Shown here piece by piece: positions 46,051 through 62,602 of a DNA stretch of 64,000 nt (the first letter of the stretch is position 1; the number at the start of each line of letters is the position of its first letter). Both the position numbers and the translations under genes were made by a program. The notes beneath the pieces are model-generated. The model saw only the letters and a program-made list of their open reading frames with translations. It had not been told where the DNA came from and did no database searches. Source of the stretch: Pseudomonas nitroreducens TX1 (GTDB lineage Bacteria; Pseudomonadota; Gammaproteobacteria; Pseudomonadales; Pseudomonadaceae); the NCBI RefSeq assembly GCF_000313755.1, contig NZ_AMZB01000136.1, positions 248,001-312,000 of the forward strand. Direction: 5' to 3'.

Positions 46051-47151
46051 TCACAGTGGTCTGGCGGTGACCAGCCAGTCGTCACCCACGGCACGGATGT
46101 CGACGATCTTCAGCTCGCGGGATTCGCTCATGCGCTCCAGCGGCAGCTCCAGCAGCGGCCGCGCGGAGGAGCCGAGCAGCTTGGGCGCCATGAAAATGCT
46201 GTATTCGTCCACTAGGCCGAGACGGGCAAAGGCACCCGCCAGGCGCGGGCCGGCCTCCACGAGAACCTCGTTGATGCCACGGCGGCCGAGCTCACTGAGC
46301 AGTGCCAGCAGGTCGACCTGACCATCGAGGCCGGCAAGGTTCAGCAATTCATGGCCGACCACGGCGTAGTTCGGGTCGTCCTGGGTGCTCACCACCAGCG
46401 CCGGGCCGGCCTGGAAGAAGGTGGCGGTCAGCGGCACGCGCAGGCGCCCGTCGATCAGCACGCGCAGCGGCCGGCGCCGGGCGGCCAGTTCAGTCTGCTC
46501 GGCATCCAGGCCCAGCTCGTCCGGTCGCACGGTCAGGCGGGCATCGTCGGTCAGCACGGTATCCGCGCCGGACAGCACCACGCTGGACTGCGCGCGCAGC
46601 CGTTGCACGGCACGCCGCGCCGCCGGGCCGGTGATCCACTGGCTCTCGCCGCTGGCCATGGCGGTGCGGCCGTCCAGGCTCATCGCCAGCTTCACACGGA
46701 CGAACGGCAGGCCGGTTTCCATGCGCTTCAGGAAGCCGACGTTCAGTGCGCGGGCTTCGCCCTCCAGTACGCCGGAGCGCGTCTGGATGCCGGCTTCGGC
46801 AATACGCTTCATGCCGCTGCCGGCCACTTGCGGGTTCGGGTCCTGCATGGCCGCCACCACGCGGGCAAGGCCGGCGCCGATCAGCGCATCGGCGCACGGC
46901 GGCGTGCGGCCGAAGTGGCTGCAGGGCTCCAGGGTGACATAGGCGGTAGCACCACGGGCTTTGTCACCGGCCTGGCGCAGGGCGTGGACTTCCGCATGGG
47001 GCTCGCCGGCGCGCATGTGCCAGCCTTCACCGACCACCTCGCCATCGCGGACGATGACGCAGCCGACGCGCGGGTTGGGATGGGTCGTGTACCAGCCCTT
47101 GCGCGCCAGCTCAATGGCGCGGGCCATCCACTGCTCATCCATACCACTCAT
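46051..47151 (-). CDS. ribD: Bifunctional riboflavin deaminase/reductase RibD
   Basis: Deaminates and then reduces the pyrimidine intermediate of riboflavin synthesis. The 366-residue protein has a cytidine-deaminase-like zinc site, HAEVHAL (about 54) and [11 protein letters not shown] (about 78-88), in its first ~145 residues, and a dihydrofolate-reductase-like NADPH domain after that ([24 protein letters not shown]). Its ATG overlaps the nrdR stop (ATGA). The gene is upstream of, not under, the FMN riboswitch. Confidence 0.97.
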
Positions 47152-56804: not shown

Positions 56805-57368
56805 CTAGGAGCGGCGGCGGAACAGCGGGCGCGGCTCGATCACCGAACGGCCGTAGAGCACGCTCAAGCCCGCCAACCCCTTCAGTGCGTCGTCCACGGA
56901 CTTGTCCTCGCGCACGGCAAAGGCATCGAAACCGCACTGGCGCATGTGCGCCAACTGGTCTCGCAGCACGTCACCGACAGCGCGCAATTCCCCGCGCCAG
57001 CCCAGGCGGCTGCGCAGCAGGTAGGCCAGGCTGTAGCCGCGACCGTCGCGGAAGCTGGGGAAGTCGATGGCGATGAGCGCCGGCTCCTTCAGTCGCCAGA
57101 TCAGGTCCTCGGGGTCGTCGTCCGGCGCCAGCCACACACCGTGAGGCTGTAGGAGCGAGCTTGCTCGCGAACCGACCAGCTCCGGCGCCGCCAGGAATTC
57201 CTCTTCGCGAGCAAGCTCGCTCCCACAGGTGCCCCGTGCCAGCCAGTCCTTCAGCGGCAGGATCAGGTTGCCCGCGGGCAAGTCGTCCGGCACTTCGCGC
57301 AGCAAGGTCCAGGGATCGTTCGGCGCCACTTCCGCCACACCATCACGCAGACGGATCAGATTGTTCAT
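56805..57368 (-). CDS. DUF934 oxidoreductase-associated protein with in-frame REP insertion
   Basis: A 187-residue DUF934 protein, the usual small partner gene next to sulfite reductase cysI. The family C-terminal part is clear: GVWLAPDDDPEDL, IAIDFPSFRDGRGYSLAYLLR, GELRAVGDVLRDQLAHMRQCGFDAF. Residues about 47-74 (TCGSELAREEEFLAAPELVG...) are encoded entirely by a REP doublet (57147-57228) that keeps the frame open, lengthening the loop before GVWL. Its stop region is followed by noncoding sequence; its start lies just after cysI's end with a four-base overlap. The function of DUF934 is thought to be in sulfite reduction. Confidence 0.9.
   Translation of the reverse strand: MNNLIRLRDGVAEVAPNDPWTLLREVPDDLPAGNLILPLKDWLARGTCGSELAREEEFLAAPELVGSRASSLLQPHGVWLAPDDDPEDLIWRLKEPALIAIDFPSFRDGRGYSLAYLLRSRLGWRGELRAVGDVLRDQLAHMRQCGFDAFAVREDKSVDDALKGLAGLSVLYGRSVIEPRPLFRRRS
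57147..57228. repeat. REP doublet inside the DUF934 coding sequence
   Basis: CTGTAGGAGCGAGCTTGCTCGCGAA and TTCGCGAGCAAGCTCGCTCCCACAG flank a spacer containing CCAGCTCCGGCGCCGCCAGGAA. A very similar spacer (CCAGCTCTGGCGCCCCCAGGAA) is in the doublet at 62525-62602, so both are the same REPIN type. Confidence 0.9.
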
Positions 57369-59029
57369 GCCGGCACCTCCGCCTGGCGGTAGACCCGCGC
57401 CTTGAAAGGCTCCAGGCCGATACGTTCGACCGTATCGACGAAGCGCTCGCCGACACCGCGCTGCTCCACGTAGGTCTTCACCAGCGCCTCGATCACGTCC
57501 GGCACCTCGGCGGCACTGAACGACGGGCCGATCACCTTGCCCAGCGCGCTATTCACGCCCTGTGCGCCACCCAGGGTGATCTGGTACCACTCGCTGCCGT
57601 TCTTATCGACGCCGAGGATGCCGATATTGCCGATATGGTGGTGACCGCAGGCGTTCATGCAGCCGGAGATGTTCAGGCTGAGGTCGCCCAGGTCGTGCAG
57701 GTAATCCAGGTCCTCGAAGCGCTGCTGGATGCCCTGGGCGATAGGGATCGACTTGGCGTTGGCCAGCGCGCAGAAGTCGCCGCCGGGGCAAGCGATGATG
57801 TCGGTGAGCAGGCCCTGGTTCGGCGTGCCCAGCCCGGCGTTGCAAGCCTCCTGCCAGAGCTCACGGAGATCGGACTTGCGCACGTCCGGCAGCACCAGAT
57901 TCTGTTCATGGGCCACGCGGATTTCGCCGAAACCGAAGCGCTCGGCCCAATCGGCCACCCGCTCCATCTGCTCGGCTGTCGCATCCCCCGGCGGCGCCTC
58001 GGCTCCCGGCTTGGTGGACAGCACTACGCTGGCGTAACCCGGCACGCGATGCGGGCGTACGTTGCGCGACACCCAGCGGGCGAAGTCGGCATCGGCGGCC
58101 AACGCTGTCCCGTAAGCGAGGTCGTCGGAAACTGCGTAGACCGGCGGCTCGAAGGCGGCGGCCACGCGCTCGTACTCCTCGAGGGTCAGCTGGGCCTCAC
58201 CATCGCGCAGGTGCTGCCACTCCTCCTCGACCTCTCGGGAGAACGCCTCGATGCCCAGCGCCTTCACCAGAATCTTGATCCGCGCCTTGTACTTGTTGTC
58301 ACGCCGGCCATGGCGGTTGTACACGCGCAGGATGGCCTCGACGTAGGACAGCAGGTGCCGCCACGGCAGGTCGTCGCGGATCACCTGGCCGAGCATCGGC
58401 GTGCGCCCCAGCCCGCCGCCCACCAGCACCTTCAGACGCAGCTCGCCGTCTTCGGCGCGGCGCAGGTAGAGCCCGATGTCGTGCATCATCACCGCCGCGC
58501 GGTCTTCCTCGGCGGCGCACAGGGCGATCTTGAACTTGCGCGGCAGGAACAGGAATTCGGGGTTCACCGTCGACCACTGGCGGAGGATTTCCGCCAGCGG
58601 GCGTGGGTCGAGGAACTCGTCGGCGGCGACGCCGGCAAACGCCTCGGTGGTGATGTTGCGCACACAATTGCCGGAAGTCTGGATGGCATGCATCTCGACA
58701 TCGGCGAGACGCTCGAGAATGTCCGGCACGCGCGCCAGTTCCACCCAGTTGAACTGGATATTCTGCCGCGTGGTGAAGTGGCCATAGCCGCGGTCGTGCT
58801 CGCGGGCGATCCAGGCCAGGGTGCGCATCTGCTCGCTGGACAGCGTGCCGTAGGGAATCGCCACCCGCAGCATGTAGGCATGCTTCTGCAGGTACAGGCC
58901 GTTCTGCAAGCGCAGCGGCAGGAATTCCTCTTCGCTCAGCTCATCGCTCAGGCGACGCTGCACCTGGTCACGGAACTGTGCCACCCGTTCGCGCACCAGG
59001 GCGCGGTCGTAATCGTCGTATCGGTACAT
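57365..59029 (-). CDS. cysI: Sulfite/nitrite reductase hemoprotein, CysI type
   Basis: A 554-residue siroheme/4Fe-4S reductase of assimilatory sulfur metabolism. Two ferredoxin-like and two siroheme-binding halves are present, with siroheme contacts near TSGNCVRNITT (about 125) and the cluster cysteines CPGGDFC (about 417) and CMNAC (about 460). The single-subunit form resembles Pseudomonas CysI that takes electrons from ferredoxin or a partner rather than CysJ. The DUF934 gene follows with a four-base overlap. The upstream region carries a TTCGGT/ACCGAA palindrome. Confidence 0.95.
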   Translation of the reverse strand: MYRYDDYDRALVRERVAQFRDQVQRRLSDELSEEEFLPLRLQNGLYLQKHAYMLRVAIPYGTLSSEQMRTLAWIAREHDRGYGHFTTRQNIQFNWVELARVPDILERLADVEMHAIQTSGNCVRNITTEAFAGVAADEFLDPRPLAEILRQWSTVNPEFLFLPRKFKIALCAAEEDRAAVMMHDIGLYLRRAEDGELRLKVLVGGGLGRTPMLGQVIRDDLPWRHLLSYVEAILRVYNRHGRRDNKYKARIKILVKALGIEAFSREVEEEWQHLRDGEAQLTLEEYERVAAAFEPPVYAVSDDLAYGTALAADADFARWVSRNVRPHRVPGYASVVLSTKPGAEAPPGDATAEQMERVADWAERFGFGEIRVAHEQNLVLPDVRKSDLRELWQEACNAGLGTPNQGLLTDIIACPGGDFCALANAKSIPIAQGIQQRFEDLDYLHDLGDLSLNISGCMNACGHHHIGNIGILGVDKNGSEWYQITLGGAQGVNSALGKVIGPSFSAAEVPDVIEALVKTYVEQRGVGERFVDTVERIGLEPFKARVYRQAEVPA

Positions 59030-62524: not shown

Positions 62525-62602
62525 TAGGAGCGAGCTCGCTCGCGAACGGCCCAGCTCTGGCGCCCCCAGGAAGGTCTGTTCGCGAGCAGGCTCGCTTCTA
62601 CT
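62525..62602. repeat. REP doublet (REPIN)
   Basis: GTAGGAGCGAGCTCGCTCGCGAAC and TTCGCGAGCAGGCTCGCTTCTAC flank a spacer like that in the DUF934 copy (CCAGCTCTGGCGCCCCCAGGAA). It lies between the small membrane protein gene and the cobM 3' end. Confidence 0.85.

Follow-up and report, generated by a model that had tools for sequence, protein, structure and literature searches.

An in-frame REPIN in a DUF934 gene of the Pseudomonas nitroreducens/citronellolis group: probably an old insertion, tolerated as a loop and occasionally lost

How does a REPIN fare inside a reading frame, and what keeps it there? The REPINs of Pseudomonas fluorescens SBW25 are inverted REP doublets with a less conserved spacer and are described, in the parts of PMC3116915 compared here, from extragenic space, whereas the element studied here lies inside the reading frame of a DUF934 gene of Pseudomonas nitroreducens TX1 (Table 1). 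We analysed it within a stretch of 64,000 nucleotides, called the window. A first-pass annotation, made from the letters of the window, had recognized a REP doublet within this gene, and both arms and the spacer do lie inside the ORF, which stays open. It had put the segment at about 28 residues; the segment is indeed in frame, but from GTAG to CCAC it measures 26 codons. The conserved C-terminal part and the cysI overlap had been read as intact, and they are: the DUF934 match (E 5e-38) starts directly after the insert, and the cysI stop and the DUF934 gene start overlap by 4 nt. Along the gene strand, the order is linker, arm 1, 32-nt spacer, arm 2 and GVWLAPDDD.

Table 1. Features of the DUF934 locus and loci of the urea carboxylase gene. 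Positions are those of the window unless a contig is named.
Feature	Position	Strand	Basis or remark
DUF934 gene, 187 aa, REPIN in frame	56805..57368	-	ORF and PF06073 match, residues 77-183
REPIN, GTAG to CCAC, 78 bp = 26 codons	57149..57226	.	sequence
REP arm 1 (gene reading order)	57204..57226	-	codes ...GSELARE
Spacer, 32 nt, apparently near-neutral for the protein	57172..57203	.	carrier comparison
REP arm 2 (gene reading order)	57149..57171	+	codes SRASSLLQ
cysI, nitrite/sulfite reductase domains	57365..59029	-	ORF and domain matches
Urea carboxylase locus L449	G000:C117:95768-96437		
Urea carboxylase loci L450, L451, L452			

The element is an ordinary REPIN; its place is unusual, and precedents exist. 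Its arms form an inverted repeat of 25 nt each (57147-57171 and 57204-57228), 96% complementary with 32 nt between them, and a 32-nt spacer is found in 13 of the 33 inward pairs surveyed in this genome (G000), this one included. Both arms contain, without mismatch, the 20-mer core of the main REP of the genome, which has 499 sites (at most 2 mismatches) in 6.69 Mb compared with none for the reversed pattern. The window holds nine core sites (at most 3 mismatches) against 0.02 expected by chance, and among its four REP pairs the DUF934 one is the pair found in frame within a coding sequence. The outer GTAG tag is present as well; across 84 surveyed arms, position -3 is always G, position -2 is T in 80 and position -1 is A in 82. 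One tag of the window copy reads GTGG, its outer ends being GTAG...CCAC where most other carriers have GTAG...CTAC, and this G for the usual A in the tag of arm 1 gives CGSE instead of CRSE. Arms are more conserved than the spacer (0.98-0.99 compared with 0.55 in the 10 orthologues with two short arms), and the genome has a match to a REP-associated Y1 transposase (Y1_Tnp, G000:C70:46534-46836). As in the REP-decorated proteins of PMC3733652, whose criteria exclude hypothetical ORFs under 120 aa, the REP lies wholly in the ORF, the frame is open and shorter REP-free homologues exist.

Two further observations concern this REP family. The Y1-transposase ORF (within locus L279, G000:C70:46379-46978) is flanked by REP sites at 46379-46441 and 46959 and is a candidate RAYT of the family. 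Elsewhere in the window, positions 62527-62598 hold a decayed REPIN whose arms carry 1 and 2 mismatches; it has counterparts, some with intact arms, in the corresponding neighbourhoods of G006, G009, G014, G016 and G021.

REPs inside proteins were catalogued already in 2013. The parts of PMC3733652 compared here report in-frame REPs within ORFs of several bacteria, over half of them dimers or groups coding for 20-30 aa, and propose flexible linkers or loops as their location; REPs in recB occupy about the same site in two Xanthomonas species, and the proteins affected include RNA helicases of O. terrae. The DUF934 case resembles these GTAG/CGTC REP-decorated proteins in having in-frame REPs in an ORF, and is a new example with an unusually informative history, whereas PMC3733652 is a species catalogue whose compared main-text parts hold no tests of DNA-level arm conservation, arm-type change or loss scars. 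As described in the sections of PMC3767692 consulted, Rickettsia palindromic elements are also in frame in genes, share a site among orthologues of several species and code for solvent-exposed segments; RPE-4 and RPE-6 are equated with intragenic R. conorii repeats in PMC3733652. These elements and the DUF934 REPIN are likened by description, both being palindromic, in frame and at a shared orthologue site, but the host lineage is unrelated. According to excerpts of PMC8049555, REPINs persist for millions of years, and the long persistence of REPIN populations is treated there as an open question. The portion of PMC12306157 searched had no match for “intragenic” or “in-frame”, and among the papers listed, titles and abstract openings yielded no report of in-gene REPs in the nitroreducens/citronellolis group.

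Is the insertion peculiar to this strain? Among 25 genomes of the genus, 14 carry it, 8 have the gene without it, and in 3 the locus is absent or a remnant. Twelve carriers belong to the nitroreducens clade (G000, G006, G007, G008, G012, G014, G015, G018, G020, G021, G022 and G023); G001 and G002 are the further ones, the G002 contig stopping within arm 2. The gene lacks the insert in G005, G009, G010, G011, G016, G017, G019 and G024. G003 and G004 have only a second, 60%-identical cysI with its own DUF934 gene, and in G013 the cysI of this locus is gone and a shortened DUF934 remnant is left. That remnant (L200, G013:C18:668000-676000) lacks the first part of the conserved domain. The second cysI copy gives a two-piece match in G016 (G016:C1:895625-897270) and a one-piece match in the other 24 genomes.

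The closest insert-free relatives encode 162 aa compared with 187 aa, a difference of 25 aa. The first-pass annotation had predicted that REP-free relatives would lack exactly this segment, and close ones do so, with a linker of 7-9 residues (G005, G009, G010, G016, G019 and G024); the linker has 10-12 residues in the outgroups G011 and G017. A non-REP loop of similar length, which it had named as an outcome contrary to its reading, is absent in close relatives, while linkers of up to 17 residues occur in some less closely related Pseudomonas. The insert is present in 6 of 80 named loci (L035-L038, L040 and L042), of which 24 were read as protein and the other 56 judged by match length alone (at most 516 nt, compared with 537-579 in carriers), so that a shortened insert may have escaped among the latter. 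Of the best 120 among 7,707 public homologues, 28 bear the peptide signature of the insert, P0043 in part only, and P0036 and P0029 look like decayed insert versions. Beyond what had been noted at first, the insertion is common to many species, seems to have been lost repeatedly and is not the only one of its kind in the genus.

Neither REP number nor the transposase tracks the insert. REP number was rejected as the cause of presence or absence, given that the non-carriers G005, G009 and G019 have 286-380 REPs; other non-carriers have few (G024 3/3, G016 36/44) or none (G010, G011 and G017). No Y1 transposase match was found in the insert-free G009 and G016 or in the carrier G022, and therefore no link between insert and transposase is visible.

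Did one REPIN enter this gene, or several? On a species tree of rpoB, alaS and glyS (8,124 nt), with the 3 genomes without the locus scored as lacking the insert, the insert label has to change 6 times, 4 of these changes being forced by well-supported branches. Both one old gain with several losses and two gains, one per clade, with fewer losses would fit this tree. The linker could also be a hotspot that received separate REPIN insertions, at least one each in the nitroreducens and citronellolis clades, instead of one old insertion. The patchy distribution on the species tree would agree with this, as would the insertion points of the two clades, which lie 9 nt apart (the linker of the citronellolis pair is 9 nt shorter), but the place is the same, and all 12 carriers of the nitroreducens clade have a 32-nt spacer except G023, in which it has 35 nt. 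Spacer likeness can be read both ways. It amounts to 0.64 among eleven orthologues and to 0.65 between G002 and these, compared with a mean of 0.48 (range 0.32-0.66, better orientation) against 12 same-length G000 paralogues; 6 of these 12, however, reach 0.53-0.66 and are nearly orthologue-like. Spacer similarity was accordingly discarded as proof of a single origin, since paralogues attain 0.66 against 0.64 between orthologues, and it favours one origin weakly. Moreover, scar-like proteins suggest that loss lies behind part of the patchiness. On balance, we consider repeated insertion at a hotspot unlikely and prefer one old insertion.

The arms of this REPIN also differ in type among carriers. 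In G008, G021 and G023, arm 1 has an 18-nt loop in place of 3 nt. This long-loop REP type (GGAGCGAGGGGGACGCCATCGTTATTGCTCGCGAA) is spread over 15 of the 25 genomes with 1 to 36 sites each (G023 36, G008 14 and G021 9), and 13 of 20 long-loop copies fetched from these three genomes are paired with a short-loop arm. A long arm 1 is present in 9 of 40 parsed carrier sequences, which have 33 different flanks. On the flank tree, the arm-type label has to change 5 times, with 3 changes forced by well-supported branches, which indicates repeated switches in the type of arm 1, whether in place or through recombination of alleles; the tree separates neither these routes nor the direction of change.

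Several public homologues retain pieces of the insert. P0052 is identical to P. citronellolis P0038 up to residue 40 and again once the conserved domain begins, and SLLQ alone is left of its arm 2. SSLLQ or SLPLQ remains in P0013 and P0015, and TPCRS or TPCRK of arm 1 in P0030 and P0033, while P0043 has kept arm 1 and little of arm 2. Compared with full-length relatives, P0013 lacks 24 residues (72 bp), whereas the element measures 78 bp. Judged from their protein sequences, P0013/P0015, P0030, P0033, P0052 and P0043 look like scars of in-frame loss. Their one-sided remnants recall the excision footprints in the compared parts of PMC3116915, where roughly 6 bp from one end stay behind; doublets are reported there to be more conserved than singlets.

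Is it the peptide or the DNA of the insert that is kept? Among the 12 nitroreducens-clade carriers, synonymous differences per same-residue pair are few in the arms (arm 1 0.024, arm 2 0.098) and more frequent in the spacer (0.31) and on either side (upstream 0.36, downstream 0.27), those of arm 2 coming entirely from its last two codons, the final one of which lies partly outside the element. Measured against cysI, the synonymous value of the arms is reached in 26 of 10,000 random 17-codon draws and in 13 of 683 contiguous windows; the contrast is strong, not absolute. In carriers, the conserved domain has a dN/dS of 0.02 (0.07 in non-carriers) and residues 1-45 one of 0.24 (0.43 in non-carriers). 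Within the insert, dN/dS reaches 0.72 in the spacer and 0.47 in the arms, the latter from few differences of either kind. The spacer value suggests that the spacer peptide is nearly free of constraint. Purifying selection on residues 1-45 points to continued translation of the segment ahead of the insert, and translation should therefore cross the insert. A restart downstream of the insert, also named beforehand as a contrary outcome, is disfavoured by the same upstream codons. The carriers read differ in length by +15, +3 and -12 nt, in each case a multiple of three, whereas the intergenic +7100 sites show spacing differences of 1-2 nt.

Two nearby intergenic REPIN places, in 6 and 7 genomes, allow a comparison outside genes. 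Arm identity there is 0.92-0.93 and 1.00 with flanks at 0.36-0.51, and it is 0.98-0.99 with flanks at 0.62-0.74 for the in-gene REPIN, the comparison being ungapped, so that indels lower the flank values, and the orthology of the intergenic pairs resting on position. Because intergenic arms are conserved to a similar degree, this conservation seems to be a feature of REPINs and not of the DUF934 gene.

This comparison bears on whether the RNA or the protein has found a use for the segment. Its RNA is predicted to fold at -65 kcal/mol (z -7.0), and such an mRNA hairpin might tune translation or decay of the cysI-DUF934 transcript, with selection on the RNA keeping the arms. The conservation of the arms as DNA would suit this role; that of intergenic arms, which is similar, and the 8 genomes that have a DUF934 gene without the element make it improbable. 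In the protein, the residues of the insert that vary least are SELARE and SRASSLLQ, as would be expected if the 26 residues had been recruited for a function and the arms were conserved for their peptide. However, the arms hardly change at synonymous sites either, the spacer evolves almost neutrally, close relatives lack the segment or bear scars with their other residues intact, and the frame in which arm 2 is translated is a different one in hrpA and urea carboxylase. An AlphaFold2 model (52 sequences, mean pLDDT 74.8) agrees with the loop that had been predicted at first: residues 48-71, between helix 39-45 and strand 77-80, have pLDDT below 50 and are nearly all coil; the C-terminal end is also of low confidence. 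We therefore regard recruitment of the peptide as very improbable. The probability of an assembly artefact or a broken gene, for which one could cite the G002 assembly that stops within the second arm, is negligible, since the insert has an open frame in six single-contig assemblies (G006, G008, G014, G018, G020 and G022) and the conserved domain of carriers is strongly constrained (dN/dS 0.02, as above). As to the DUF934 fold, neither a PDB sequence match nor a Foldseek match was obtained at E <= 0.001, and for its role, the name was not found in the literature among the matches listed.

Other genes were surveyed for translated REPs. In 837 kb of G000, window included, 1 of 48 REP groups had one open coding frame on both sides, namely DUF934, with a group-scan score of 22.1 and 0.6 for the next. 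Of the 41 groups in 21 neighbourhoods, which comprised 20 fetched stretches plus a portion of the window, 13 passed, and each of these was the DUF934 copy. When 800 kb of G008 were scanned by group (70 groups) and arm by arm, two further genes emerged, hrpA and urea carboxylase. Urea carboxylase scored only 0.5 in the group scan, and DUF934 itself escaped the arm-by-arm scan; because of such false negatives in both scans, the counts of genes with in-gene REPs are lower bounds. Other translated-REP matches were rejected, as none of 17 loci had the same open coding frame on both sides, and an arm-by-arm match at G000 C122:68876, whose frame looks like a transporter, was taken as chance. A public-protein search with residues 43-82 alone returned only 4 candidates and was uninformative on other families.

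In hrpA (TIGR01967; L420-L444, 25 genomes), a REPIN lies in a linker of the RNA helicase, with both arms in frame in 11 of the 25. Arm 2 of these two-armed copies is without mismatch in 11 of 11; for arm 1, 8 copies have the short type (0-1 mismatch) and 3 the long type (2-6 mismatches). G005 retains arm 1 alone, in intact form, G013 has 3 mismatches per arm, and G010, G011 and G017 have no arms. Eroded copies occur in 9 genomes (G000 included, L433), in which arm 1 has 3-8 mismatches and varies at third positions and arm 2 is missing; for the most eroded of these the claim draws on the aligned peptide (RKNEPAREQ compared with RRSELAREQ) in addition to the DNA. These nine copies resemble one another and might go back to a single event. 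In urea carboxylase (TIGR02712; five genomes), in-frame REP arms again lie in a linker: G008 has two intact arms (G008:C1:3184778-3184850), in G000, G022 and G009 arm 2 is intact whereas the long arm 1 is eroded (7-8 mismatches), and G005 has no REP arms. The G008 linker contains another inverted repeat (CCCTCTCCC / GGGAGAGGG), spotted by eye; the peptides at this second repeat appear similar in G000 and G022, and part of it is present in G005.

Place, frame, distribution, the contrast between arms and spacer, the change of arm type and the scar-like proteins are all seen in the sequences. We think it probable that together they record an old in-frame REPIN in a variable linker, tolerated as a loop, with arms kept as DNA and occasional in-frame loss. 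In this account, an ancient insertion would have brought a GTAG-class REPIN of 78 bp, in frame and as one unit, into the variable DUF934 linker, either ahead of the P. nitroreducens/citronellolis radiation or in the course of it. As codon evolution suggests, it would be translated as a floppy loop that the protein tolerates; the earlier proposal of a REPIN tolerated as a protein segment is supported as far as sequence can tell. The arms, not the peptide, would be conserved, held as DNA by whatever maintains REPINs genome-wide, and at this locus they would switch between types spread through the genome. The spacer would drift with only the reading frame guarded, and in-frame deletion would occasionally remove the element, at times leaving part of one arm as a peptide scar. 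Neutrality for the protein and the direction of the losses are, we infer, part of this history, with gene conversion or RAYT action as the presumed agent.

A wider reading, which we offer tentatively and hold to be somewhat unlikely, is that REPINs keep rewriting coding sequence of this Pseudomonas group in at least three unrelated genes, two-armed copies being near-frozen as DNA and swapping arm types with the other REPINs of the population while broken doublets drift or excise with a scar. Against its step of drift once broken stand the three genomes whose urea carboxylase gene combines an intact arm 2 with an eroded arm 1 and the intact lone arm kept in hrpA of G005; these intact single arms speak against a simple rule of immediate decay after the doublet breaks.

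The value of the DUF934 REPIN lies in the history that it records. Scar-like proteins, arm-type changes and eroded hrpA copies form a series from two-armed to eroded states. Third codon positions in the gene provide a built-in yardstick that is missing from intergenic copies, and they suggest that the arms are held as DNA and not as peptide. If the wider reading is true, in-gene REPINs would offer a codon-level assay of REPIN maintenance.
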